DNA from: Gammaproteobacteria bacterium
GTDB lineage: Bacteria; Pseudomonadota; Gammaproteobacteria; Acidiferrobacterales; Sulfurifustaceae
Reading direction: 5' to 3'
NCBI GenBank assembly: GCA_016199745.1
Contig: JACQFZ010000022.1
Coordinates: forward strand, 124,001-188,000
DNA length: 64,000 nucleotides
The notes beneath the pieces were generated by a model. It worked only from the letters and a program-made list of their open reading frames with translations. It was not told the DNA's origin and searched no databases. This document shows positions 9,794 to 28,457 of the stretch, in pieces. Each line of letters starts with the position of its first letter. Within the stretch, counting starts at the first letter, position 1. A program made the position numbers and the translations under genes.

Positions 9794-12298
9794 TTATTTC
9801 ACGCGCATGCCCGGCTGCGCGCCGCTATCCGGCGAAAGAATGAATAAGCCGGGTGTTTTGCCGTCGGCGTCGGAGGCGGCCAGTACCATGCCTTCCGACA
9901 ATCCAAACTTCATTTTGCGTGGTGCGAGATTGGCGACCATGACCGTCAGCCGGCCGATCAGCGTTGCCGGGTCATAGGCCGACTTGATGCCGGCGAACAC
10001 CGTGCGCGGTGTCGCTTCGCCGATATCGAGTGTGAGCTTCAATAATTTCTCGGCGCCTTCGACGTGCTCGGCGTTGGCGATCTTGGCGATGCGCAGATCG
10101 ATTTTGGCGAAGTCGTCAATGGAAATATTTTTACTCCCCGCTCCCTCCGGGAGAGGGGTAGGGGGTGAGGGAGATTGCTGCATAGGTAAGCGTTCCTCAA
10201 GTTTGTTCCAGATAGATTCAAGCACGGCTTGTGTGTTTCCAAGTACGTCGTTGTTCCAAAAACGCAAAACATATATTCCGACGCCTTCGAGCGCGCTCGT
10301 GCGGGTTTCGTCATGTTGCGTCTGCTCTTGGTGTTGTCCGCCGTCGGCTTCAATCGCGAGCTTCGCCTCGCTGCAATAGAAGTCGACAACAAATCGTTGC
10401 CCGTCAACTTCGATCGGATGCTGTCTTCTGAACTTTGCATCGTGTAATCGCCGATCGCGCAGCAACAACCAAAGAAACGTTTCGGCGTCGGGTTGTTGAT
10501 CACGTAGTTTGCGGGCAACTTCCAGCAGGTCGGCGGGCAGCGGCTTTTTCCGTGCCTGCTTTCCCTCACCCCCAGCCCCTCTCCCGGAGGGAGAGGGGGG
10601 TTGGAGGCTTTCCCTATTTGCAGAAATCAACGCTTCGATTTGTTTGGCGTCGACACGAGTCAGCAGGTGTTGATAGTCGCGAATCGAATGTCCAGTCGCA
10701 AGCAGCGATTTTGCGTCGTCCCACTTCAGTGGAGCGATATTGAGGAATTTTTCGACTCGTTCTGCGGTTATTGGTAGTACGGGTTTTAGATAAAGCGTAA
10801 GCAATCGGAAGAGATTGAGCGCAACCGAGCAAACGAGGTGTAGCTTTTCTTCTTGCCCAGGTTGTTTCGCCAGTTCCCACGGTTTGTGTTTGTCGACGAA
10901 CTGGTTAGCCACGTCGGTCAAGGCCATTACTTCACGGAGCGCTTTGCCGTAATCGCGAGAGTCGTAGTAGTTGGCGATGGCGCTGCCCCTATCCTGAAAC
11001 TCGGCGATGATGGAGTCGTCGCCAGTCCCAAATATTTCCGAGCCAAATGCGAAAATTCTTGGCGGGAGTTTCAGTACCCCGTTAAAACGCTTCGATACGA
11101 AGCCGGCGCAGCGACTGGCGATGTTGATGTACTTGCCAACTAGATCGCTGTTCACGCGCGCGACGAAGTCGTCGAAACTTAAATCGATGTCCTCCACCGT
11201 GCCGTTCAACTTAGCGGCGTAGTAGTAGCGCAGCCATTCCGGATTGAGGCCGAGCGTCAGGTAGCTCTCGGCATTGATAAAAGTGCCGCGGCTCTTCGAC
11301 ATCTTTTCGCCGTTGACCGTGAGATAGCCGTGTACGCATAGCTTGGTCGGCGTGCGGTAACCGGCGTGCTGCAACATTGCCGGCCAAAACAACGCGTGGA
11401 AGTTAAGAATATCTTTGCCGATGAAGTGATAGAGCTCGGTCGTCGCGTCCTTCTGCCAGAACGCATCGAAGTCGAGGTCACGTTTAGCGCACAGATTCTT
11501 GAACGACGCCATGTAACCGACCGGCGCATCGAGCCAGACGTAGAAGTACTTACCGGGGTGACCCGGGATCTCGAACCCGAAGTAGGGCGGATCGCGCGAG
11601 ATATCCCAGTCTTGCAAGCCCGACTTCAACCATTCATCCATTTTGTTAGCGGCTTCCGGCTGCAACGTGCCGGAGCGGGTCCACTGACGCAGGAATTCGC
11701 CGCAGCGCGGATCGGACAGCTTGAAGAAGAAGTGCTCGGATTGGCGTCGTTCCGGTTTGGCGCCGGAGACGACCGAATACGGATTTTTCAGATCGGTCGG
11801 CGAGTAGGTCGCGCCGCAGACTTCGCAGTTGTCGCCGTACTGATCTTTGGCGCCGCACTTCGGGCATTCGCCTTTGATATAGCGGTCCGGCAGGAACATC
11901 TGTTTGATCGGGTCGTAAAAGTTTTCGACCGAGCGGCGCGCGATCAAGTCGGCAGCGTCGAGGCTTTTATAGATGGCTTCGCTATACGCGCGCGTTTCGT
12001 CGGAGTGTGTCGAGTAGTAGTTGTCGAAGTCGACGTGAAAGCCGGCGAGGTCGCGGGTGTGCTCTCGCCAGAAACGGGCGATTAATTGCTCGGGCGTGAT
12101 TCCTTCTTTCTCGGCGCGCAGCATGATCGGCGTGCCGTGGGTGTCGTCGGCGCAAACGTAGTAGATCTCGTGCCCCTGCATTTTCTGAAAGCGCACCCAA
12201 ATATCGGTCTGGATGTATTCGACCAAATGGCCGAGATGGATCGCGCCGTTGGCGTAGGGCAGGGCGGCGGTGACGAGAATGCGGCGTTTATCAGGCAT
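9794..12298 (-). CDS. metG: Methionyl-tRNA synthetase with inserted DUF559 domain
   Basis: 834 residues from the ATG at 12298 ([18 protein letters not shown]), against about 680 for family members. Class I signatures are present: HLGH near residue 20, the zinc knuckle [18 protein letters not shown], and KMSKSRGT. The anticodon-binding domain follows, and the C-terminal tRNA-binding (EMAP-like) domain starts at [14 protein letters not shown]. Between them, at residues about 566-722, lies an in-frame foreign segment: a DUF559 domain bordered by translated palindromic repeats ([14 protein letters not shown] and [16 protein letters not shown]). The linker it interrupts is normally short and variable, so aminoacylation is probably preserved. 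The gene is essential and divergent from apbC. Confidence 0.95.
10134..10174. repeat. Left inverted copy flanking DUF559 cassette
   Basis: CTCCCTCCGGGAGAGGGGTAGGGGGTGAGGG-type repeat. Its reverse complement matches the right copy at 10562-10602 over about 32 positions with few differences. Confidence 0.85.
10562..10602. repeat. Right inverted copy flanking DUF559 cassette
   Basis: CCCTCACCCCCAGCCCCTCTCCCGGAGGG-type repeat in the orientation opposite to the copy at 10134-10174. Together the pair acts as terminal inverted repeats around the DUF559 coding segment. Confidence 0.85.
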
Positions 12299-12436
12299 GC
12301 GATGGGTCAAAATGGGTTTCGTTGAATGCGGCGATGATAAGGGAAATACACGCTCAAGTCCCAGCGATTCATGACTTTTGGGGGTGCCCGGTGTAGCATG
12401 TCTGCCCTTCAAAATGTCATGCAGTGAGGCTTTCCG
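12299..12436. promoter_or_regulatory. Divergent metG/apbC intergenic region
   Basis: 138 bp separate the start codons of metG (minus) and apbC (plus), so promoters for both must lie here. No convincing -35/-10 pair could be chosen by eye. Confidence 0.4.
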
Positions 12437-13528
12437 ATGACCCAAGTGGTGGAGCGCGACGTAGAGACGGCGCTCAAGCAGGTGCTTGACCCTTACCTCG
12501 ATCAGGATTTAGTGACGGCCAAGGTGGTGAAGAAGATCACCGTTGCCGGCGACAAGGTGACGGTCGATCTCTTGCTCGGTTATCCGGCGCAGGGTTCGAA
12601 GGATGCGCTGGCGGCAACCGTGCGCACGCAGGTCGCGGCATTGCCCGGCGTCGTCGATGTCGCGGTCAACGTCGACTGGCGGGTCGATCAACATTCCGTG
12701 CAGCGCGGTGTGAAGCCGTTGCCGGGTATCAAGAACATCATTGCTGTCGCCTCCGGTAAGGGTGGTGTCGGCAAATCCACCGTGTCGGTCAATCTCGCGC
12801 TCGCGCTCGTCATCGAAGGTGCCAAGGTCGGTATTCTCGACGCCGATATTTACGGTCCGAGTCAGCCACGCATGCTGGGCGTGAAGCGCAAGCCCGAGTC
12901 CAAAGACGGCAAATCGCTCGAGCCGATCGAAGCTTATGGCTTGAAGTCGATGTCGATCGGTTATTTGATCGATGACGAGACGCCGATGATTTGGCGCGGT
13001 CCGATGGTGACGCAGGCGCTCGAGCAATTGCTGAAGGAAACGAATTGGGGCGAGCTCGATTACCTCATTATCGATCTTCCGCCCGGCACCGGCGATACGC
13101 AGCTGACGTTGGCGCAGAAGGTGCCGGTGTCCGGCGCCGTTATCGTCACCACGCCGCAAGATATCGCTCTGCTTGATGCGCGCAAGGGTCTCAAGATGTT
13201 CGAGAAGGTGAACGTGCCGGTGCTCGGTGTGGTCGAGAACATGAGCACACACATCTGCTCGAAGTGCGGTCATGAGGAACACATCTTCGGTGAAGGCGGC
13301 GGTCAACGCATGGCCGACGAGAACCAAGTGTCGTTGCTTGGCCAACTACCGCTCGACATCCGCATCCGCGCCGAGACCGACAGCGGCAAGCCGACCGTCG
13401 TGGCCGAGCCGGACAGCAAGATTGCGCTGCTGTATCGCGATATTGCCCGTCGCGTCGGTGCGCGCTTAGCGCTGCAAAAGAAAGACTTCAGCAACAAGTT
13501 TCCGAACATCGTTATTCAGAATACGTAG
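12437..13528 (+). CDS. apbC: Iron-sulfur cluster carrier ApbC/Mrp
   Basis: 363 residues. An N-terminal MIP18-like domain (about 1-85) precedes the P-loop ATPase. The deviant Walker A reads GKGGVGKST near residue 110, then [14 protein letters not shown], and the DLPPGTGD motif. The bridging cluster site CSKCG lies near residue 275. ApbC carries and transfers [4Fe-4S] clusters as a dimer in the cytosol. The gene starts 138 bp from divergent metG and is followed by a strong hairpin (13565-13594). Family length and motifs are standard. Confidence 0.95.
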
Positions 13529-14487: not shown

Positions 14488-14513
14488 CCCCCTCCCCCGC
14501 AAGGGGGGAGGGG
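14488..14513. repeat. Palindromic CCCCTCCCCC/GGGGGAGGGG repeat
   Basis: An inverted repeat with a GCAA loop lies between the convergent dcd and cupin genes; it belongs to the dispersed palindrome family. Confidence 0.75.
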
Positions 14514-15093: not shown

Positions 15094-16560
15094 CTACAGC
15101 GTTTTCAAATATTCGAGCAGCGCGTCCTTTTCCTTCGTCGGTAAGAACACACCATACTCGTGCCCCTGATTGCCGCTGGCGCGCTCGTGTACGTCGAACT
15201 TGCTGCCGACGCGTTGTGCTTCGACACTGTCGATAACGAAACCGACGTTCGCCGGATCGTACAGATCGTAGCCGCGATAAAAGATCTTGGGCCGTTCGGC
15301 GACCGGCTTCAGTAAGTCGCGTAACGTCGGCACCGAGCCGTTGTGCAGGTACGGTGCCCGCAGCCAGATGCCGTCGAGGAAGGCGGCGACGTAGCCGCTC
15401 GGCTCGTTCTCGACCAGGCCTTTGCGTTGGATGCCGAAGTTGCTGACGACACGATTGGCTTCAATCGCGGCGGCCTTGCTCCATGTGGCGAGACGCTCAC
15501 GATCGGTGCCGACTTCTTCAACCGGAATGCGCGTGCCGGTGCGGTCGCTCTCGTGGCAGCGGACGCAATACCCTTCGTACACGGCGCGGCCGGCCTTCAG
15601 CTTGGCTTGATCGATCGGAAACGGATACGGCGGTGCTTTGATCTCGCCGAGATATTTTTCCAGCCAGGCGACATGACCGAGGAAATCGTCCGTGTCATGC
15701 GGTTTGGCACCGAGCAGGCCGAGTGCCGAATCGATGATGACCGAGCGCGCATCGTGGCTGTCGCCGCCGAAATTCATGAGATTGCCTTGCTCCGGCCGGT
15801 ACTTCTTCAGGTTCCACACCGACGGCATGTCGGTCGGGCCGATGGAGTTATCCATCGGCACGTTGATCATGAAGTACTTGGTGAGATTGAAGGCGTCGTC
15901 GCGCCCACGACCCCATTCGGGAAAGTCTTTACGGTAGATCCAAGCGAATTGCTTTTCGCGTTCGAGCAATTGCTTTTTCGTGATCGGAATGAGGACAAAA
16001 CGGTAAATCGTTTTGTCGAGCCACGATAACTCGGTGACTAAATTGATTTCGCGCATCAGCGAGTCGGCGTTGAAGCGCGGATCCTTGGCGCAATCGACCA
16101 AGAAGCGGAAGAATGCTTCGAGGTTGAGCGTGTGATTCGGACCGGCGACGACGAAAGTTGGGTTCTCGTCGGCATTCTTGCGATAGCTCGTGGTATGGCA
16201 AGCGGCGCAGTTATTGGCGACGCGCGGGAAGCCGATGACTTTTTTGGTGAAGCCGACCGGCAACTCCTGACCTTGCTCCCAGGCAACGCCAAACGAGGCG
16301 TAACCGCCGGGGCCGGGCAACTTGTCCGGGAACATGCGCGGCAATACGTAGAAAATCCAGTACGGAATGCCGGCGTCGTACTCGGCGCCGATGGAACCGT
16401 ACTTAAAGCGCATCTCCGACGTTGCCGTCACCCAGTCCGGCTGTGGTTCGGCGCGGAAGAACTTGTACCAGCCGACGTAGCCGCCGATGGCGCCGAGGAT
16501 CAGCAGCACGGTCAAGGCAGCGACAAATTTTCGTTTGTTTGATGATTTTTTCGTGTTCAT
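15094..16560 (-). CDS. RoxA-like diheme cytochrome c
   Basis: 488 residues. A basic N-terminus and one membrane segment (about 10-30) anchor or export the protein. Two haem-binding motifs are visible: CAACH near residue 117 and CVRCH near 325. Shared with RoxA/MauG-like diheme oxygenases and peroxidases are the DMPSVWN segment, the late LRAPYLHNGSVPTLRDLL and the ending of the type KDALLEYLKTL. It is the most downstream of four cytochromes on this strand. It probably acts in the periplasm on an oxidised organic substrate or hydrogen peroxide. The exact reaction is unknown; rubber cleavage is not implied. Confidence 0.75.
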   Translation of the reverse strand: MNTKKSSNKRKFVAALTVLLILGAIGGYVGWYKFFRAEPQPDWVTATSEMRFKYGSIGAEYDAGIPYWIFYVLPRMFPDKLPGPGGYASFGVAWEQGQELPVGFTKKVIGFPRVANNCAACHTTSYRKNADENPTFVVAGPNHTLNLEAFFRFLVDCAKDPRFNADSLMREINLVTELSWLDKTIYRFVLIPITKKQLLEREKQFAWIYRKDFPEWGRGRDDAFNLTKYFMINVPMDNSIGPTDMPSVWNLKKYRPEQGNLMNFGGDSHDARSVIIDSALGLLGAKPHDTDDFLGHVAWLEKYLGEIKAPPYPFPIDQAKLKAGRAVYEGYCVRCHESDRTGTRIPVEEVGTDRERLATWSKAAAIEANRVVSNFGIQRKGLVENEPSGYVAAFLDGIWLRAPYLHNGSVPTLRDLLKPVAERPKIFYRGYDLYDPANVGFVIDSVEAQRVGSKFDVHERASGNQGHEYGVFLPTKEKDALLEYLKTL

Positions 16561-16585
16561 GTTTTTCTCCTTCCACTTTCTATTT

Positions 16586-16675
16586 CCCCTCTCCCTCCGG
16601 GAGAGGGGAAGGGGTGAGGGACGTACCGATCCGTTACATCCCTCACCCCATCCCTCTCCCGGAGGGAGAGGGGGA
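16586..16675. repeat. Inverted pair of palindromic repeats, 17-bp spacer
   Basis: Copy A (16586-16621, CCCTCTCCCTCCGGGAGAGG then GGGGTGAGGG) and copy B (16639-16675, CCCTCACCCC then CCCTCTCCCGGAGGGAGAGG) stand in the same mutual orientation as the repeats around the DUF559 cassette in metG. Only about 17 bp lie between them. The pair occupies the gap between two cytochrome genes. Confidence 0.85.
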
Positions 16676-16697
16676 GTAGGTTCGCTGATGCGATTTG

Positions 16698-18209
16698 TTA
16701 GAACGTCTTCATGTATTCGACGATCGCGTCTTTGTCGGCCGGCGGCAGCGACGTGCCGTAGGCTTTGCCTTCATGGCCTAGATTGCCGTTGCTCGGCAGA
16801 CTCGTGTCGTAACGGAAATATTTGCGGCCTTTCTCTTCGGCGAGCGTGCTGACGAAGCCGACTTTGATCGGATCGTACAGATCGTTGCCGCGATAGAACA
16901 CGCGCGGTCGTCGCCACGACACTTCGAGTAGATCGCGCAGTGTCGGCACCGAGCCGTTGTGCAGGTACGGCCCACGCAGCCAAATGCCGTCGAGCGGCAT
17001 GTTGGTGTAGCCGTAGGTCTTGCGGAAGTTTTGGAAACGCCACGGGTAACCGGCGTAGAGCGTGCCCTGGTTGACCGCGAGCTCGTAGGTATACGAATCC
17101 AAACGGCCGCGATCGGTGCCGATCTCGGCGATCGGCGTCACCTGGCCGACCTTATCGCCGGTGAAGTCCTGACCGTTTGCGCCGTGGCAACTTACGCAAT
17201 ATTGCTTGTACAGCGCCGCGCCGCGGCCGGCGAGATCTTTATTAATGGGATACGGATACGGCGGCGCTTTGACATCGCGCATCCATTCTTCCAGACGGCC
17301 GATGGCATCGATGTCGAGCGTCGCCGGCGTCGTACCGGTGCCGAAGGCAGCGCTTTTGTTACGCTCTTCAACTTTGGTGTTGTTGCCGTCCCAATGTAAC
17401 TGCATGCCTTGGCGCGATCGCTGATTCCAAACCGATGGGAAATCCGCGGCACCGTGCAGCTCGTGCTCCGGTAACCGATCGAGCGGAATGTTGAACAGGA
17501 TCTTGGCAGCGTTGAACGTGTCGACCCGTCCTGGGCCCCACTCGACGCCGTTGAGCGTGATGTTGAGTCGGCCTTTCAGCATCAACAAGCGTTCGCGCAT
17601 CAGGCCGATGGCGACCGGATAAACGACGTAACGATCGAACGCATTGAGCCCACCGGCCAGTCGCTCGACCTCCGGTACGATGTATTCGGCACGGAAGCGT
17701 TCGTCGGCGGCGCAGTTGAACATGAACCGTTCGAACGCCATGAGGTCGAGCCGCGCGGCCGGCATACCGAGGTACACGCGCGGCTCGGCGTCGGGTTTGT
17801 CACGCACGGTGCTGTGATGGCATACGGCACAGTTGAGAAATACGCGGTCGATGCCCAAGTGGCGGCGTTGCATGACACCGATCGGCAAATCTTTGCCCGG
17901 CTCGTACACCAGGCCGAACGCTTCGTAGCTGCGCGGTGCGCCGTTATCGGGCAGGTGCGAGGCGCACACTTGCGGCAACGCCCGCCAGATCCAGTAGGGA
18001 AAACCGGATTCGCGTTCGCCGCCGGTTGAGCCGTATTTGAAATGGTCTTCGATATTGGCGTATGTGACTGGTCGGTCAGGCAGGAAACGAGCGGCGAGAT
18101 AGATCAGCGGTACGAGAACGATGATGAGCACAAGCGCGAGCAGAGTCAGAAAACGCCGCCGCCACGGTGCGATCGGGCGGTCGGAGGGAAACTTGATGCG
18201 CTTGTTCAT
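16698..18209 (-). CDS. RoxA-like diheme cytochrome c
   Basis: 503 residues from the ATG at 18209, which is preceded by GGAGA; an upstream GC-rich frame is non-coding. It has a basic start, one membrane segment (about 20-42) and two haem motifs, CAVCH near residue 130 and CVSCH near 340. It is clearly paralogous to the cytochrome at 15094-16560: both have the GFPYW/GIPYW block, ADFPSVWNQ with HWDGNN, LRGPYLHNGSVPTLRDLL and an acidic-lysine end. The HWDGNN block resembles the distal haem pocket of RoxA/MauG-like enzymes. A periplasmic oxidoreductase is inferred; the substrate is unknown. Confidence 0.77.
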   Translation of the reverse strand: MNKRIKFPSDRPIAPWRRRFLTLLALVLIIVLVPLIYLAARFLPDRPVTYANIEDHFKYGSTGGERESGFPYWIWRALPQVCASHLPDNGAPRSYEAFGLVYEPGKDLPIGVMQRRHLGIDRVFLNCAVCHHSTVRDKPDAEPRVYLGMPAARLDLMAFERFMFNCAADERFRAEYIVPEVERLAGGLNAFDRYVVYPVAIGLMRERLLMLKGRLNITLNGVEWGPGRVDTFNAAKILFNIPLDRLPEHELHGAADFPSVWNQRSRQGMQLHWDGNNTKVEERNKSAAFGTGTTPATLDIDAIGRLEEWMRDVKAPPYPYPINKDLAGRGAALYKQYCVSCHGANGQDFTGDKVGQVTPIAEIGTDRGRLDSYTYELAVNQGTLYAGYPWRFQNFRKTYGYTNMPLDGIWLRGPYLHNGSVPTLRDLLEVSWRRPRVFYRGNDLYDPIKVGFVSTLAEEKGRKYFRYDTSLPSNGNLGHEGKAYGTSLPPADKDAIVEYMKTF

Positions 18210-18257
18210 GCTTTTTCTCCAGGTAAACAATTTGTGCACAGCACGTGCCACTCCCGT

Positions 18258-18352
18258 CCTCCCCCTCAAGGGGAGGGACTGAGGGTGGGGGTGGGTTACG
18301 CTGCTGTTACCAAACCTACCCCCACCCTAGCCCTCCCCCTGAGGGGGAGGGG
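18258..18352. repeat. Inverted pair of CCTCCCCC-type repeats
   Basis: Copy A (18258-18297, CCTCCCCCTCAAGGGGAGGG then GGGTGGGGGTGGG) and copy B (18314-18352, ACCCCCACCC then CCCTCCCCCTGAGGGGGAGG) are inverted around about 16 bp. This is a sister type of the CCCTCTCCC repeat, again at a gene junction in the cytochrome cluster. Confidence 0.8.
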
Positions 18353-18354
18353 AC

Positions 18355-20247
18355 TCAGTGCAACGTTTCATTGGTGGTGCATGGCCTAAGCGTTTCGTAA
18401 TCGGTTAGCGTCATTTGTTCGACACTGGGCACCGCACCTTGATCGGCGCGCAGCAGCTGAGCGACATAGTTGTTGATTGCCGCAAAGTCTTCGCTCGCGC
18501 TCCAATGTTCCGGCGCCAGTCGCAAACGATCCAACGCCGTGCGCGGCGGCATCGGCGTTTTCGGCCGGGTCGATGCAGCGAGTTGCCACATGTTCAGGCG
18601 AAAATAAATACGCGCGGCGCAGTGGCGGATGTTGGCCGCCACTTGCTCGGCGTTGCCGTAGAGAAAGTTCGGTGGCGAGCGCTCGTGGGTTTGATGGCAA
18701 CTGGCGCAATACGGATAGAACCGTTTCACTTCGCGACTCATCTGCGCGATGTCCGCCGCGGCGTCGATACCGACGTCGTCGGTTTGAGCGGTAGGCAACG
18801 CCAAGTCACTCTGGCAGCACGGGCGATAATCGACGCCTAAGCGAGCGAGCAATGCCGGCACAACGATTAGGCGTCGGAAGGGTTTTTCGGTGAGCGCGTC
18901 CGTGGCGTCGTTCTCCGTGGCGGTGATGAGCTGATCGATCGCTTGCGCGATCGCCGTGGCATCGCTAAACGGGTTGTCGTCGAGCGCCTGCCATTGTATG
19001 CGTAAACCGTTTAGCCGTCGCCGCAACCGACGCACGTCGGCTTCGGCGAGAAACGCCGCCAGCTCAATCACTGCCTGTTTGGCGAAATCGATTTGCGCCG
19101 GTCGCCATATGGCGATCGGCGGGCGCGGCAACAACGGCTCAAACCGCGCCGCTACATGTGCCAGCGGCAGGCCCGCCGGCAACTCGGCGTCGCGATACGG
19201 CCGTTGCAACGGATCGCGGTTGGGGATGTCGGGGTCGGCGATGGCAAGGCCGTAGGTCCAGCGCAAAGCGGCGTTCTGGCGTATCAGCGGTGCCGCCGCG
19301 CGCCAGCGGTCGGTATCGGCATCGAATCCGCGCCCGTCGTTTAGGCGGTACTGCAACGCCGCTTGCAACAGCGCCGCGCGGCAACGAATCGCCCGCGTTG
19401 GTTCGGCGTCACAGCCCTCGCTCCAAAGTTTTTGCGCGGCGGCGTAGCGATTGGCGCGGTCGGTGGCGTCGTCGATGGCGTTCGGTATGTCGACGCCGCG
19501 ATCGATATCGATGCCGTAGAAATCTCGATGTTGCTCGTGCAAACGCGCGGCGACAGCGGTGTTGGCATTGGTCTCGTCCCACAGCGGCCGCGAGAAGATT
19601 GGCGCCTGATTTTGATGACAGCTGGTGCAGATGCGGCGGTTGGCGTAGACCAGGCGCGGCCTGCCGCCGGCGCGGTAATCTTTCACCAATTGGAATTCGA
19701 AGCGGCCGGCCGTTTCGTTATAGCTAATGACTTCGATCAGCTCGGCGTGTTCGTGATAGCCAAGATAGAGCCGGTCTTTCAGCAGCGGTCGCAGTAGATC
19801 GCTGTTCAACGGCTCGCCGGTTACCGCCACCACGACTCGCGGATAGGTAAAGAAGTCCGGTGCAGCGGTAGTGCGCTGCAGCGATCGCCCGAGCGGGATC
19901 AATACGGCTTTGAGACAAGACGAGGCGCTCGAAATCGCCGCCGGCCGACAGCCGGTTTTATTTTCGATGCGCTTGAGCAGAGCGCTGAGCGGGAACGGAA
20001 TGTCGTAGGCCGATTGGCGATCGACGTTGTTGCTGGCGATAACATCGAACAGCGAGCGCCCGGCCGGCGGCAGATCGGTGCCGGCGATGTGCGGTACAAC
20101 GGCCCACGTCGGTAACGGTGTGCTATCGGTAGCGGATGCTGGTGGCACTGGTTTGGCGAAATAGCGCACGACAATAGTCGCTCCAATGGCGATCGCGGCG
20201 ACGGCAATAATGCCGATCCAGTACGTTCGTTGGATGCTTCCTTTCAT
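18355..20247 (-). CDS. Large diheme cytochrome c, 630 residues
   Basis: 630 residues with an N-terminal membrane segment (about 8-28) that may be an uncleaved anchor. The two haem motifs are CTSCH near residue 210, in CTSCHQNQAPIFSRPLWDE, and CASCH near 525, in YCASCHQTHERSPPNFLYG. The RPLWDETNAN context is seen in uncharacterised periplasmic cytochromes of other proteobacteria and myxobacteria. It differs from the RoxA-like paralogues beside it and lacks their C-terminal HNGSVPTL block. The stop abuts a palindromic repeat. It probably donates or accepts electrons in the periplasm together with its neighbours. Confidence 0.7.
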   Translation of the reverse strand: MKGSIQRTYWIGIIAVAAIAIGATIVVRYFAKPVPPASATDSTPLPTWAVVPHIAGTDLPPAGRSLFDVIASNNVDRQSAYDIPFPLSALLKRIENKTGCRPAAISSASSCLKAVLIPLGRSLQRTTAAPDFFTYPRVVVAVTGEPLNSDLLRPLLKDRLYLGYHEHAELIEVISYNETAGRFEFQLVKDYRAGGRPRLVYANRRICTSCHQNQAPIFSRPLWDETNANTAVAARLHEQHRDFYGIDIDRGVDIPNAIDDATDRANRYAAAQKLWSEGCDAEPTRAIRCRAALLQAALQYRLNDGRGFDADTDRWRAAAPLIRQNAALRWTYGLAIADPDIPNRDPLQRPYRDAELPAGLPLAHVAARFEPLLPRPPIAIWRPAQIDFAKQAVIELAAFLAEADVRRLRRRLNGLRIQWQALDDNPFSDATAIAQAIDQLITATENDATDALTEKPFRRLIVVPALLARLGVDYRPCCQSDLALPTAQTDDVGIDAAADIAQMSREVKRFYPYCASCHQTHERSPPNFLYGNAEQVAANIRHCAARIYFRLNMWQLAASTRPKTPMPPRTALDRLRLAPEHWSASEDFAAINNYVAQLLRADQGAVPSVEQMTLTDYETLRPCTTNETLH

Positions 20248-20276
20248 TTAGCGGAAGCTCCGCTGCACCGATCTGG

Positions 20277-20304
20277 CGTCATCCCCACGCAGATGGGGAT
20301 GACG
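20277..20304. repeat. CGTCATCCCCA hairpin
   Basis: CGTCATCCCCA and TGGGGATGACG form a perfect 11-bp stem with a six-base loop between the lipoprotein and 630-residue cytochrome genes. Its sequence differs from the CCCTC-type palindromes. It could be a terminator or another short dispersed repeat. Confidence 0.55.
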
Positions 20305-20358
20305 TTGGTCATTCGCCGCTCACCCAATCCTCGATGAGGAGGGCGGCACAAATCGACG

Positions 20359-21228
20359 TTACTTCGCGGCGACGGTCGCCCGCTGCGTGCCGCGCCAGCA
20401 ATCCTCCGCCACTTGTCCGGATTTCGCGAACGCCGGACCGTCGCGATCGGCGATTTCTTTGTTATACAGCGTGAAGTTCAACAAGAACACTTTGCCGGCG
20501 TAAGCGCGGCCGAGATAGAAACCGGGATGGATCATGCGGATCTCGTCGCGGATCATGAGGCCGTGACGACCGGCGAGAAAATCCGGGCGCTCGCGGTAGC
20601 CGGGTAACTCTTCACTGTAGGCGTAGTCGATGATGATCGACTCGCGGCGTGCGTCGAGCAGGCTTTGACCGCAGTAAAGCTTGGCCGGGAACAACAGCCA
20701 CGCGGTCTTACCGTTGACTGTGATCGTGTCGAGCGTACTGGTATCGCCCTGAATCAGCGGTTTGATTAGCGTCAGATCGTCGATGCGGTTACGCAGCAAG
20801 CGATCGTTGCGGTAGAACACCTTGCCCTTCCATAGCGTGCGGCCGATGGTTTCGAGTTTGCTCGCTTTGAATTCAACGACCCGACCGGCGATGCCGCCGA
20901 TGATTTCGGTCAAGCGGCGCTCGCCGCTGGTACCTTTCGGAAAGAACAAGTTACCGTCGAACGCGCCGTCCGGAATCGGTCCGGCGGTTAGGCGCGCGTA
21001 GATTTGATCAACCTGTTCTTGATCGAGCACGGCGAGATTCTCGGGGGTGATCTTCTCGAGATCTTTCAGCGACAGCGGGTATTGATGTTCGATTTCGGCG
21101 AAGTCGGGTTTTGCGGAGTAACCGTCGCCGTAGGGCGCAAAGGCGATATCGAGTTTCTCATGGCGGTTGCAGGCGCCGACAGCGGCAACGGCGAGGGTGA
21201 CGGTCAATACAGCCATGCGTGTTTTCAC
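20359..21228 (-). CDS. Lipoprotein in cytochrome cluster
   Basis: 289 residues. The N-terminus MKTRMAVLTVTLAVAAVGAC carries a lipobox with the acylated Cys at 20, so the mature protein is membrane-tethered. The rest is soluble and contains no CxxCH. A stretch YPLSLKDLEKITPENLAVLDQE is followed by a mixed alpha/beta region with several conserved-looking aromatics. I do not recognise the family. It lies between two cytochrome genes on the same strand and could be an accessory or assembly protein for them. Confidence 0.7.
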   Translation of the reverse strand: MKTRMAVLTVTLAVAAVGACNRHEKLDIAFAPYGDGYSAKPDFAEIEHQYPLSLKDLEKITPENLAVLDQEQVDQIYARLTAGPIPDGAFDGNLFFPKGTSGERRLTEIIGGIAGRVVEFKASKLETIGRTLWKGKVFYRNDRLLRNRIDDLTLIKPLIQGDTSTLDTITVNGKTAWLLFPAKLYCGQSLLDARRESIIIDYAYSEELPGYRERPDFLAGRHGLMIRDEIRMIHPGFYLGRAYAGKVFLLNFTLYNKEIADRDGPAFAKSGQVAEDCWRGTQRATVAAK

Positions 21229-21259
21229 GATGGATCTCCTAAATAGCTGGGCAATACAT

Positions 21260-21374
21260 CCCTCCCCTTCAGGGGGAGGGACCGAGGGTGGGGGTGGGTT
21301 GGGGCTTTGCTTAGGCTCGGCCCCCTTCGTTTGAACCCATCCCCACCCTTTACCCTCCCCCTGAGGGGGAGGGG
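21260..21374. repeat. Inverted pair of CCTCCCC-type repeats
   Basis: Copy A (21260-21300, CCTCCCCTTCAGGGGGAGGG then GGGTGGGGGTGGG) and copy B (21335-21374, CCCATCCCCACCC then CCCTCCCCCTGAGGGGGAGG) are inverted around about 34 bp, between the lipoprotein gene and the largest cytochrome gene. Confidence 0.8.
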
Positions 21375-21394
21375 ACGTCGGAGGAAAATCATTT

Positions 21395-23908
21395 TTATAG
21401 AGTTGCGAGAAAGGCGGTCAGCGCCTTCTTATCGGCGTCGGGCAGATCTTGCCCGAAGGTGTGGCCGCCGTTCTCGATGGTGTCGGTGCAACTGCTGTAA
21501 ATCTCCAGCAACTTGTGCTCGCGCTTAATGATGTCGACCAACTTAGTTGGATTCTTCATTACTTCGTTGGCGGTACGCTGTAGCAACGCGGTTAGCTCTT
21601 TGCCTTCCTTGTCGCCGTATTGTTGTACCAACTGTGTCTGCAGCTCCGCTGGGCGCAACCGCGCGATCACGAGATCGCCGATGAAACGTTTGTGTAGGAA
21701 GTTGCCGAGGCCGCTGGCCTTAGTGCCGGCCGGAATCGTCAGCGTCAGGCCGAGCAGCTCGCGCTCGGCGTCGCCGTCCCACAGTTTCGGTCCGAAGGCG
21801 ATGTTTACTTCTTCGTTGAATAGCGTCGCCTTGGTTTTGCGTGCTTGCGGGTTCAGCAATTGATGCATCGATTCCTTATATAGCTTGAAACGGCCGTCGA
21901 CGCTCGGATCGTAGGCCCAGCATGCCGGCTGTTGATTTGGCGGCAGCATCTTGCCGTCGGCGTCGATATAACGCGGCCGATCGAAATCGTTCGCCTTGTT
22001 CGCCGGCTTGCCACAGATTTCCGGACCCATGGCGTTGTTGTGCATCAATGGCGCGTGTGCCCAAACACTCAGTAACGAGATGTTGCGGTAGTAGCCGCGA
22101 CCGCCGCTGGCGTCCTCGCGCACGTTCGGATCAGATGGTCGCGCCCGCAATGTTTCCGAGCCGTACTCTTGATAAATGTGGCCGGTCATGTGGTTCGCAT
22201 GCAGCGCGCGGCAACGGTAAGTGCCGACTTCGCTGACTTTGGTGGCGCCGTCGTTACCCATCCAATCGGCGCGCAGACCGGTTTGCGGATCGAGCGCGCG
22301 GAAATCGCGATTCTTGAACGGACCGCCGACATTTTCCGGAATGCTCGAATGGCAACGCGCACAGTTCTGCGCGAACACGTCGTGGCCGCGGCCGACGGCA
22401 CCTTTGCCGAATTCTTTTTCGAGATCGGCGACCAGGTCGTCGTAACCGTAGTTGGCGCCGGCGTTGCGTTGCTTGCGTTCGTTTTTGCGGGCGACGAACA
22501 AGTCGGTGGCGTTGTTCTCCTTTGACATCAGGAAGCTGACGATGTTGGGCAGCCGATCTTCGATCGCGCGAAAGTTCGGGCAATCACGGCGGCACTGACC
22601 AATGTTGAACGGCGTTTGGCCGAAGTTGCGCGCCTGCGGGTCGAGCTGACGCAGATCGGTGAGATGGTTCACCCAGCACTGCTCGGAGCACGAGCCAATA
22701 TTAAAGTAGACGCGTTGCACCGCTTCCGGCGCACCGATGCTGTCTTCGCCGCCTTTGAGGATGTGGTTTACCGCTTCTTCTCTTTCGCCACGTTGCCAGC
22801 ACTTGTTGTCGCGGCCGGGTTCGCACCAGCAGCTGCCGGCCGGCGCATCCTTGGCGCATAACTGCACTTTGCGCCACTTAATAACTTTCTCGTTGGCGAA
22901 GATCGGCCGTTGTTTGAGATTGATAATGGCGTTGATCGTGCCCGGGTTGTTCGTTTGGTCGCTGGGGATCGCCGAGGTGTCGGTCGTGCCCGGACGCGCG
23001 TGCGCGAACATTTGCCATTCGAGACTGTTGGTCGGCATGCCGGAGCCGAGCAACTCCGACACACGGATATATTGATTGCCGATGCCGCCCTTCAAATTTT
23101 CCCACTTCGGCTGGGACGGGTTTTTGGGCGGATTGAGCGGATCGAACGAGATGTGACACAGGCCGCATGCTTGACCTATTAAGAACGGCGGCTCGACCGA
23201 GTCGTCGCTTGTCTGACTCAGTTTCCCGCCGGGGCTTTGCCGCGGTAAGCGCTGGCGCCAGCCGTTCCAACTGGCGAAGCTGCCGTTCAGTTTCTTCCAG
23301 GTCGCGGCGTTGAAGCGCGGGTTCGGGAATTTGCGCAGGCCGAGAACGCCGGTCGAGGTGCCGAAAGCGAGATCGCACGCCGATTGCCGTTGATCTTTCG
23401 GCCCATGGGTATCGCTTAGATCGACGGCGGTGTCGGTCAGGCTGCACGCCGGATCGCGATAGCCTTCTTTGCCGACGAACTTCAGCAGCTCTTCGTCGCC
23501 CGGACACCATTCGAGACCGTAGGTCTGGTCGAGGCTCTTCGCCGGACAGCCGGGTTTGCCGGGTATACAGCACGACGGATCATTCATCGTGCCCCAGGCG
23601 CGGAAGCGATCATCGCGCTCGCCGGCATTCAGCACACGATACCAATCGATATAAACGCCGAGTCGCTGCGGCATCGTGTACGAATGAAAGCGGGCATTGC
23701 CGGCGGTCGCTTTGTACCAGATTTCGCGGCCGACGCGTTCGGAATCGTTCAGACCATTAGCACCGGCATAAAAGCCACGCTCGTCATAACCGGCGGCGGA
23801 GCCGGCGCCGTTGGCGGTGATTGAGTCGGCGTTAGCGGAGGGGGCGATGATGGCGGCGAAGATGGATAACGCAGCGCCTAAGACGGCAGTGTAATAGGCA
23901 GGCTTCAT
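21395..23908 (-). CDS. Very large RoxA-like cytochrome c
   Basis: 837 residues from the ATG at 23908, which has GGGAGGGACC just upstream and gives a signal peptide ending SANA. Haem motifs are CGLCH near residue 270 and CARCH near 540. Extra cysteines in the first half (CCIPGKPGC, CWCEPG, CSEQCW, CRRDC) suggest disulfides. The segment LLSVWAHAPLMHNNAMGP and the C-terminal NGGHTFGQDLPDADKKAL are typical of RoxA-type proteins, though this protein is longer than RoxA (about 680 residues). It is the first gene of the run and probably the most upstream member of the transcription unit. Confidence 0.75.
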   Translation of the reverse strand: MKPAYYTAVLGAALSIFAAIIAPSANADSITANGAGSAAGYDERGFYAGANGLNDSERVGREIWYKATAGNARFHSYTMPQRLGVYIDWYRVLNAGERDDRFRAWGTMNDPSCCIPGKPGCPAKSLDQTYGLEWCPGDEELLKFVGKEGYRDPACSLTDTAVDLSDTHGPKDQRQSACDLAFGTSTGVLGLRKFPNPRFNAATWKKLNGSFASWNGWRQRLPRQSPGGKLSQTSDDSVEPPFLIGQACGLCHISFDPLNPPKNPSQPKWENLKGGIGNQYIRVSELLGSGMPTNSLEWQMFAHARPGTTDTSAIPSDQTNNPGTINAIINLKQRPIFANEKVIKWRKVQLCAKDAPAGSCWCEPGRDNKCWQRGEREEAVNHILKGGEDSIGAPEAVQRVYFNIGSCSEQCWVNHLTDLRQLDPQARNFGQTPFNIGQCRRDCPNFRAIEDRLPNIVSFLMSKENNATDLFVARKNERKQRNAGANYGYDDLVADLEKEFGKGAVGRGHDVFAQNCARCHSSIPENVGGPFKNRDFRALDPQTGLRADWMGNDGATKVSEVGTYRCRALHANHMTGHIYQEYGSETLRARPSDPNVREDASGGRGYYRNISLLSVWAHAPLMHNNAMGPEICGKPANKANDFDRPRYIDADGKMLPPNQQPACWAYDPSVDGRFKLYKESMHQLLNPQARKTKATLFNEEVNIAFGPKLWDGDAERELLGLTLTIPAGTKASGLGNFLHKRFIGDLVIARLRPAELQTQLVQQYGDKEGKELTALLQRTANEVMKNPTKLVDIIKREHKLLEIYSSCTDTIENGGHTFGQDLPDADKKALTAFLATL

Positions 23909-24373
23909 GGTCCCTCCCTGTTCGCGATGAGTTCGAATCCGTACGTCCTGGGTCCTGTGAGTATGGACGTCCAATGTCCGCGGTGAATGTATTAGAAAAA
24001 ATTAGCCCCCGCAATAAGTCTGAGGACTAGCCAAAAAGTCGAGTTGCAAGGTCGGCGGGAGTAGTAGCTAGGGCGTGTCACCAATTAAACCAACCAAACC
24101 CAAATAGCCGCACAATAAATACCCGCCAGGAAGTTCCGCGCCGGTCGATGCTTTCACGCTGAGTTCTTCCCATGAATTGATAGGGCCGCATTCGATCGAT
24201 ACAAGCGTGCCCTTGCTCTCCCTCCCTAGGTAGCGTGGTGCGCGTTATCCCGCACTTGCTTTTGGCCCAGCTTTGCTTAACGCCGAGCAACCAAGCAGAA
24301 CTAATTTGTGATGGCATCCCGGTAGAATTCGCTGTAGCAAAATTGTCACGACGCTTACTAACGGCAGATGCGA
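23909..24373. other. Non-coding 465-bp region
   Basis: The stretch between the start of the large cytochrome gene and the terminator of the next lipoprotein gene must contain the cytochrome promoter. Short open frames on both strands here (for example 24078-24317 minus) have no recognisable domain and atypical composition, and the region is visibly less GC-rich than its surroundings. A decayed gene is possible, but I could not identify one. Confidence 0.4.
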
Positions 24374-24404
24374 CAAAAAAAAGCCCCGTCCTTGCGGACG
24401 GGGC
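24374..24404 (-). terminator. Rho-independent terminator
   Basis: On the minus strand GCCCCGTCC-GCAA-GGACGGGGC, a perfect 9-bp stem, is followed by eight T residues. It lies 30 bp after the stop of the 815-residue lipoprotein gene. Confidence 0.93.
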
Positions 24405-27189: not shown

Positions 27190-27753
27190 GTGAATAACAA
27201 CACTAATTCCACCGATGGCTCCGCCCGTTTGGCCGAATGGATCGGCCGATGCGCGCTCGGCGACGAAGCGGCGTTTGTCGCGCTCTATCGAGCCACGTCG
27301 GCGAAACTCTTTGGCGTCGTCCTGCGTATATTGAAGACACGCCATTGGGCGGAAGAAGTGCTGCAAGAGGGGTATATGAATATTTGGCGCCATGCCGGCA
27401 GCTACAACCTAAGCCGCGGCGCGCCGATGACTTGGATGATCAACATTGCCCGCAATCAGGCGCTCGATTTTCTGCGCCGTTCTGAATACCGCGCTCTTCG
27501 TCACGAGCATCTGGTCGAGCAAGAATTACTGGACGAATCCGATCAACCCGCGCAAGTCCTCAGCGCCGAGCTGGAACGGTTGCACCGTTGTCTAGACGGA
27601 CTGGCGGAGGCCCAACGGCGTTGCTTGTTGTTAGTTCATCACGAGGGGTTTAGTCCGATCGAAGTCGCGCAGCGGCAAGGCTTGCCGCTTGGCACGGTGA
27701 AGACCTGGGTGCGGCGCGGGTTGTTGCGGTTACGCGAGTGTCTCGGCGCATGA
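27190..27753 (+). CDS. ECF sigma factor, SigK/RpoE-like
   Basis: 187 residues from a GTG at 27190. Region 2 covers about residues 22-90 (AFVALYRATSAKLFGVVLRI, MTWMINIARNQALDFLR), and region 4 about 125-183, with the helix-turn-helix EVAQRQGLPLGTVKTWVRRG. The architecture matches ECF group members paired with RskA-type anti-sigma factors that respond to oxidative or chlorine stress. The next gene overlaps the stop codon (ATGA), so sigma and anti-sigma are translationally coupled. The regulon is unknown. Confidence 0.9.
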   Translation: MNNNTNSTDGSARLAEWIGRCALGDEAAFVALYRATSAKLFGVVLRILKTRHWAEEVLQEGYMNIWRHAGSYNLSRGAPMTWMINIARNQALDFLRRSEYRALRHEHLVEQELLDESDQPAQVLSAELERLHRCLDGLAEAQRRCLLLVHHEGFSPIEVAQRQGLPLGTVKTWVRRGLLRLRECLGA

Positions 27754-28457
27754 AATACGACGATCCGGCATTGCAGGAATTGTTGGCCGGCGAGTATGTG
27801 CTCGGTGCATTGCGCGGCGCCGCGCGGGCGCGGTTCGAAACGTTGTTGCGGCGTGATCCGGCACTGCGCCGGCGGGTAACGCAGTGGCAAGAACGGTTGG
27901 CGCCATTGGCGCAAGAAATCACTGAGGTACCGCCGCCGCGCCGAGTGTTGCGGCAACTGCGGGCACGCTTGCGGGCGGGTGCGACGGAACTCCGCTGGTG
28001 GGAGCGGCTCGACTTTTGGCGGCCATTCGGCGCGACCGCTGCAGCCTTGTTAATCGCGTTGACGATTTATTTCGGCATGCCGATCGAGCGAGTATCGGCG
28101 CCGCTTGGTCCACGGTATGTCGCGGTGTTGGCCGACCAGGCCGAGCAGCCGGCAGTCGTTGTTATGGCGCATGTGAATCCGTGGCGACTGACCGTTGAAC
28201 CGTTAGCGTCGGTGACGATACCGCCCGGGCGAGTGCTGCAGATTTGGGCGGTCGAGCGCGGCACGGGGGTTGTACGACGGCTGGCGCGGCTGACGTCAGC
28301 TGATGCGCAACAGACAGCACTGACGCAAGCAGGTTGGCAATTCGTAAAGGGCGCCGAGTCATTGATCGCTACCGCCGAGCCGATTGAGGTGGCGTCGACG
28401 GTTCCCACCGGTGCGGTGATTTATTCGGGGCTTTGTATCAATTTGAAAAGTCTTTAA
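27750..28457 (+). CDS. RskA-family transmembrane anti-sigma factor
   Basis: 235 residues from the ATG at 27750, which overlaps the sigma stop as ATGA. The cytoplasmic N-terminal zinc-finger-like anti-sigma domain covers about residues 5-60 (LQELLAGEYVLGALRGAARARFE). One membrane segment lies at about 92-110 (GATAAALLIALTIYFGM), and the C-terminal RskA domain is periplasmic (PPGRVLQIWAVERG, PTGAVIYSG). Such proteins sequester the cognate sigma until regulated proteolysis. A palindromic repeat follows at 28474. Confidence 0.88.
   Translation: MKYDDPALQELLAGEYVLGALRGAARARFETLLRRDPALRRRVTQWQERLAPLAQEITEVPPPRRVLRQLRARLRAGATELRWWERLDFWRPFGATAAALLIALTIYFGMPIERVSAPLGPRYVAVLADQAEQPAVVVMAHVNPWRLTVEPLASVTIPPGRVLQIWAVERGTGVVRRLARLTSADAQQTALTQAGWQFVKGAESLIATAEPIEVASTVPTGAVIYSGLCINLKSL

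Follow-up and report, generated by a model that had tools for sequence, protein, structure and literature searches.

It was asked whether a run of cytochrome genes on a gammaproteobacterial contig forms one system and, if so, what this system might oxidise. The genes occupy positions 15094-23908, on the minus strand, of a 64,000-nucleotide stretch of DNA, referred to as the window (contig JACQFZ010000022.1, positions 124,001 to 188,000; assembly GCA_016199745.1, family Sulfurifustaceae). A first-pass annotation had placed four large c-type cytochromes and a lipoprotein here on one strand, and all five were found where it had put them, as four two-haem c-type proteins of 837, 630, 503 and 488 residues and a lipoprotein of 289 residues. 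Open reading frames (ORFs) and their translations gave the transcription order P0005-P0004-P0003-P0002-P0001. Exactly two CXXCH motifs were present in each of P0001, P0002, P0003 and P0005. All eight motifs were in frame, and the homologue alignments of the four proteins showed little or no variation in them. Judged from its sequences, the block probably encodes an uncharacterised machine of the cell envelope whose target, either a greasy molecule or a partner protein, is oxidised with oxygen or peroxide.

Conservation of the five-gene block

The five genes form a self-contained, co-inherited unit whose order recurs across dozens of bacterial species. A set of 80 loci of P0005 relatives, with 55-65% identity over about 800 residues, was searched for the other four proteins. 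All five genes were present in the same order and on the same strand in 53 of the 59 loci that had at least 7 kb downstream, so the layout goes beyond chance. Five of the six exceptions kept P0005-P0004-P0003 and lacked P0002 and P0001 (three Nitrosospira/Nitrosovibrio loci, L042 and L080). In the sixth, L062, the gene junction was masked by a run of N, and a P0005-P0004 fusion at this place was only apparent. A P0013-like neighbour in Accumulibacter was taken as P0005 itself, judging by position and frame length. When the flanking genes were clustered across the relatives' loci, no family was shared past the lineage background and no uptake or catabolic neighbour was conserved. Within the collection of papers searched, none describing the five-gene operon was found.

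Carriers of the block include Thauera, Aromatoleum, Zoogloea, Accumulibacter, Azotobacter and sulfur-oxidising lineages, and the laboratory strains Azotobacter chroococcum DSM 2286, Thauera aminoaromatica S2 and Zoogloea oleivorans are among them. It was intact in Thiobacillus (L071), Sulfuricaulis (L085) and a Hydrogenophilales genome (L083), lineages that live on inorganic sulfur compounds and are largely autotrophic. Among 321 evenly sampled genomes of the class, seven contained P0003, and six of these were also the genomes with type-I P0005 (Fisher p 5e-12). P0004 was found in just two of the P0003/type-I P0005 genomes of this sample, plus one match to a short, stop-interrupted fragment.

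Protein families of the block

The two proteins of about 490-500 residues had been described as paralogous, and P0001 and P0002 are assigned here as true paralogues and members of the RoxA superfamily. With PF21419 (RoxA-like Cyt-c; curated cut-off 26.7 bits), P0001 scored 62.5 bits (E 3e-17) and P0002 53.1 bits (E 2e-14). Scores with NF040606 (CytoC_perox; cut-off 150 bits) were 171.4 and 171.3 bits, respectively. The P0001 and P0002 family profiles matched the solved RoxA structure 4b2n at 1e-16 and 4e-18. Both families showed the RoxA feature set of two CXXCH motifs, the MauG motif PYxHNGSVP and the C-terminal H641, and the equivalents of the haem-ligand histidines (heme 1, heme 2, the MauG-motif H and H641) were all conserved. 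The best scores with the RoxA, RoxB and RoxC equivalog models were 55.8, 72.6 and 80.4 bits and did not reach the cut-offs of 1000, 900 and 900 bits.

In RoxA, W302 is the inter-haem bridge and F317 is essential. The W302 equivalent was W in 61 of 61 P0002 sequences and in 6 of 61 P0001 sequences. At the position of F317, 59 of the 61 P0002 sequences had F and all 61 P0001 sequences had L. The pair has thus diverged in a regular, fixed way, with the RoxA-type W/F residues in P0002 and not in P0001. Comparable asymmetries at these positions are reported between RoxA (W,F) and RoxB (V,F) (PMC6311187) and between the dioxygenase PA2077 (W,F) and the diol synthase PA2078 (S,F) (PMC4496055). A maximum-likelihood tree parted the P0001 and P0002 clades. 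The rhizobial P0010 joined P0001 (support 99/96) and the rhizobial P0008, with 47% identity to P0002, stood outside the P0001 clade, so the split predates the alpha- and betaproteobacterial versions of the cluster.

P0005 is a remote member of the RoxA superfamily. Comparison with the P0001 and P0002 families by hhalign gave 98% with E values of 4e-14 and 1.5e-13, the aligned span taking in the MauG-like motif as well as the second haem domain. Its scores with NF040606 (22.2 bits) and PF21419 (10.8 bits) were below the cut-offs. The MauG motif had the version PLMHNNAMG. A C-terminal GHxFGxxL motif aligned with the H641 region of RoxA, the C-terminal His being kept, and the alignment of F456 with RoxA F317 was weak. 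The signal peptide was judged by eye to be cleavable. With 22 cysteines, the protein agrees with its earlier description as RoxA-like with extra cysteines.

Neither P0003 nor P0004 matched a Pfam or NCBIfam family above cut-off or a solved structure in profile searches. P0003 carries an N-terminal hydrophobic anchor and the conserved stretches CxxCHQN..PIFSR and, C-terminally, CxxCH..KxPMPP. Against the RoxA-like families, hhalign gave only 7% and 4% over 20-22 residues around the haem motif, that is, no detectable relation beyond this motif, and the P0003 profile found nothing below 0.04 in the PDB. The structure model of P0003 was confident (pLDDT 82, pTM 0.84). It had no Foldseek match below E 3 and no VIA-align match above Z 3.6, which is no proof of a new fold. 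In P0004, the lipobox Cys20 was invariant, as were W133, W177, W278, C186 and C277, and the core WLLFPAKLYCGQSLLDxRRESIIIDY was strongly conserved.

The first-pass label 'RoxA/MauG-like' for all four diheme proteins therefore holds in part. P0001, P0002 and P0005 belong to the RoxA superfamily by the matches given above, and P0003 showed no detectable relation by any test run. Membership of the MauG/BthA type was not borne out, as none of the four matched CCP_MauG (PF03150) at E<=1.

Gene neighbourhoods of distant relatives

The system has a modular core, with P0005 accompanied by P0003 or by a GMC oxidoreductase and with or without the P0001/P0002 pair, because rhizobial, Pseudomonas, Nitrosospira and gammaproteobacterial relatives combine the genes differently. 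On rhizobial plasmids, the surroundings of a P0005-like protein comprised P0001- and P0002-like proteins, a 143-residue membrane protein, a GMC oxidoreductase, an OYE-type reductase and a patatin-like lipase. The P0001-like enzyme of Pseudomonas was fused to an N-terminal multi-span domain resembling the rhizobial 143-residue membrane protein, and it had a GMC-alpha/beta-hydrolase fusion on one side and a metallophosphoesterase on the other. In Nitrosospira, GMC and a second P0005-type protein adjoined P0005-P0004-P0003, with a tyrosinase as well in two of three loci. Other Gammaproteobacteria had only P0005-like and P0003-like genes paired (four loci).

Further arrangements were observed at these loci. 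The Pseudomonas loci L176-L179 held a conserved cluster of the GMC oxidoreductase-alpha/beta hydrolase fusion, a RoxA-like diheme enzyme and the metallophosphoesterase. In L180-L182, also from Pseudomonas, a catalase-like protein (PF00199) was encoded directly 3' of a 612-residue RoxA-like diheme enzyme that is a more distant relative, an arrangement suggestive of hydroperoxide handling. The tyrosinase-domain gene of Nitrosospira was located next to the second P0005-type gene, at L036:20419-21456 and L043:20217-21248. After three of the four P0005-like/P0003-like pairs (L127, L128 and L130) came genes for a one-haem protein and for a multi-span membrane protein, the latter having a conserved THAHLFG motif and matching no Pfam family.

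Proposed function and alternatives

Tentatively, we infer a membrane-anchored, two-step periplasmic diheme oxygenase assembly that acts on a lipid-like or partner-protein substrate. P0002 would bind O2 at its N-terminal haem and oxygenate either a partner protein or a substrate of alkenyl or lipid-like nature. P0001 would perform a follow-up step, processing a hydroperoxide or peroxide as PA2078 does after PA2077. These two roles are proposed because the W302/F317 split parallels those of RoxA/RoxB and PA2077/PA2078. P0005 would be the large core partner, and P0003, whose C-terminal haem domain is class-I-like, may exchange electrons with the respiratory chain. P0004 may anchor or present the substrate at the outer membrane. 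Electron hand-over between the operon proteins, already suggested by the first-pass annotation, may plausibly occur. Oxidation of a lipid-like compound in the periplasm or envelope is favoured because flavin oxidases, lipases and catalase-like proteins occur near relatives and because activities on polyisoprene and fatty acids are known in the RoxA superfamily. The product would more likely be used to modify the envelope or as a signal than to support growth, as finding the block intact in Thiobacillus, Sulfuricaulis and Hydrogenophilales speaks against a growth substrate.

Several points weigh against this proposal. The operon itself indicates no substrate, and lipid genes stand only beside relatives. 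The second-step role of P0001 is proposed by analogy, and the enzymes compared are from a different subfamily. The rhizobial and Pseudomonas relatives lacked the F317 equivalent, which is therefore no marker of the whole group. For P0005, the structure model was poor (pLDDT 54) and a Foldseek search with it returned noise, so neither was used. A more speculative reading, less likely than not, is that the block represents a multi-enzyme envelope oxidase of a new type, in which three distinct RoxA-superfamily diheme enzymes in sequence would work with the novel families P0003 (electron transfer) and P0004 (substrate or carrier) in heterotrophs and autotrophs.

A respiratory or peroxide module is a serious competitor, if a rather unlikely one. 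The diheme proteins would then act as reductases of H2O2 or O2, or oxidise an inorganic donor, and P0003 would relay the electrons; this would protect the envelope or add a respiratory branch. P0001 and P0002 exceed the cut-off of the NCBIfam family 'di-heme-cytochrome C peroxidase' (171 vs 150 bits), but this name is an annotation and not an activity, and the canonical CCP_MauG Pfam domain is absent. The carriers are respiratory specialists, comprising denitrifiers, ammonia oxidisers, sulfur oxidisers and polyphosphate accumulators, and a one-haem protein comes after the distant gammaproteobacterial P0005/P0003 pair, with the THAH-motif membrane protein in three of four cases. However, three differing RoxA-type proteins and a conserved lipoprotein exceed the needs of a peroxidase, and relatives of these proteins are paired with lipid enzymes.

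Modification of a protein by the logic of MauG and MbnH is improbable. The diheme enzymes would oxidise residues of P0004, or of P0003, to a redox or metal cofactor. This role is attractive because the lipoprotein P0004 is strongly conserved; it is also tightly linked to the operon and has invariant tryptophans and cysteines. MbnH is a precedent, a diheme enzyme acting on a neighbouring protein. The same holds for MauG (PMC6405878, PMC6311187). On the other hand, the distant P0005/P0003 clusters had no P0004 homologue, P0001 scored 11.6 bits with the MbnH model (TIGR04039) against a cut-off of 362.85 bits, and the conserved Trp residues may be structural.

The first-pass annotation had proposed a dedicated periplasmic oxidation pathway, perhaps for a polymer or hydrocarbon. 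A dedicated periplasmic redox unit is upheld by the co-inheritance of the block and by the RoxA membership of P0001, P0002 and, remotely, P0005. Catabolism of a polymer or hydrocarbon by a dedicated pathway is very unlikely, even though the RoxA superfamily is represented in the block and some carriers (Aromatoleum, Thauera) degrade hydrocarbons or aromatics. The RoxA/B/C equivalog scores of 50-80 bits were far under the 900-1000 bits of the models, uptake and catabolic neighbours were not conserved, the enzymes are anchored or periplasmic and not secreted, and the sulfur-oxidising lineages carry the block intact. A mere sharing of the locus without joint function, to which the 111-166 bp gaps of the window and the REP-like repeats in three of four of them might point, has virtually no likelihood and is refuted in practice by the order and strand kept in the relatives' loci, the short gaps elsewhere (medians of 13-24 bp in other genomes) and the co-occurrence across genomes.

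The system is widespread and strictly conserved in environmentally important bacteria, namely Accumulibacter, Zoogloea and Thauera of wastewater and, in part, nitrifiers. Two of its families, P0003 and P0004, are unnamed, and the superfamily of its enzymes is a known one. The residues that consistently set P0001 apart from P0002 yield specific predictions on which of them binds O2. The sulfur-oxidising carriers argue for a housekeeping or signalling oxidation over catabolism.

Locus layout and adjacent features

A strong intrinsic terminator lies between P0006 and P0005, and P0005 therefore starts its own unit (Table 1). The start of P0005 was set at the ATG at 23908, which has a good ribosome-binding site; the longest ORF begins at 23974. 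For P0002, the longest ORF begins at 18269. Two adjacent genes were rejected as operon members. Neither the lipoprotein P0006 nor the cupin P0007, the nearest gene downstream of P0001, had a homologue in the relatives' loci, and P0006 is separated by the terminator. P0006 belongs to no known family and is adjoined by divergent genes for an ECF sigma factor and an RskA-type anti-sigma factor.

Table 1. Coordinates of the operon and of adjacent features in the window.
Feature	Position	Strand	Description
P0005	21395..23908	-	837 residues from ATG, 22 Cys, CGLCH/CARCH; soluble diheme c protein of the periplasm, encoded by the operon's first gene
P0004	20359..21228	-	289-residue lipoprotein, lipobox VGAC
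P0003	18355..20247	-	630 residues, CTSCH/CASCH; membrane-anchored diheme c protein
P0002	16698..18209	-	503 residues from ATG, CAVCH/CVSCH; N-terminally anchored RoxA-like diheme enzyme
P0001	15094..16560	-	488 residues, CAACH/CVRCH; N-terminally anchored RoxA-like diheme enzyme
Intrinsic terminator, strong	24383..24404	-	3' of the upstream gene P0006; parts P0006 from the cytochrome operon
REP-like palindrome pair	21260..21373		P0005-P0004 gap
REP-like palindrome pair	18257..18351		P0003-P0002 gap
REP-like palindrome pair	16587..16672		P0002-P0001 gap
REP-like copy	14490..14510		past P0007
P0007	14524..15081		cupin gene
P0006	24435..26882	-	815-residue lipoprotein
Sigma and anti-sigma genes	27190..28457	+	ECF sigma factor, RskA-type anti-sigma
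MetRS ORF	9794..12445	-	with in-frame DUF559 domain
DUF559 domain	10137..10597		PF04480, endonuclease-like

Because of the REP-like pairs, the operon gaps are longer here than in other genomes. The palindromes lengthen the gaps and are no functional part of the system. Their family has 153 copies in the genome (control pattern 0). Two of them flank a DUF559 domain that lies in frame in the methionyl-tRNA synthetase (MetRS) ORF, between the anticodon and tRNA-binding domains. All four DUF559 genes of the genome lie between two REP-like palindromes about 380-470 bp apart, and DUF559 with paired palindromes is a candidate mobile element.

Comparison with known systems

Characterised enzymes of the RoxA superfamily are few and comprise rubber oxygenases and the oxylipin enzymes of P. 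aeruginosa. With NF040606 and PF21419 members, P0001 and P0002 share the two CXXCH motifs, the PYLHNGSVP motif and the C-terminal His. They differ in forming a clade that includes rhizobial and Pseudomonas GMC-linked proteins, whereas the genome's own generic NF040606-type member (contig C38) and the 612-residue Pseudomonas proteins fall outside it. The likeness to MauG, BthA and MbnH lies in the broad logic of a two-haem enzyme, and the P0001-family profile (A2) weakly matched 6e1c, 'Di-heme enzyme' (E 0.0075).

RoxA and RoxB resemble the pair in fold family, by the profile match to 4b2n, in the W302 and F317 equivalents of P0002 and in the pairing of W and non-W paralogues. In contrast to their length of about 650 residues, P0001 and P0002 have about 490-500 and carry membrane anchors, and the further families of the operon are not reported for rubber degraders. 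For RoxA, unsuccessful expression in E. coli is reported (PMC6311187), and Steroidobacter cummioxidans is a host in which it can be expressed. The oleate 10S-dioxygenase PA2077 and the 7,10-diol synthase PA2078 of P. aeruginosa are likewise paralogous periplasmic diheme proteins encoded side by side, of which only one has the inter-haem Trp. Compared by their published residue pattern (PMC4496055), they differ in length (634 and 624 residues) and in having the F317 equivalent in both, and no partners like P0003, P0004 or P0005 are described for them. The uncharacterised Rhizobium pRL11 cluster (OYE - P0008 - P0009 - P0010 - P0011 - GMC - patatin) has a GMC oxidoreductase, OYE and patatin instead of P0003 and P0004, but holds orthologue-like counterparts of P0002 and P0001 (41-47% identity) and of P0005 (about 25%).

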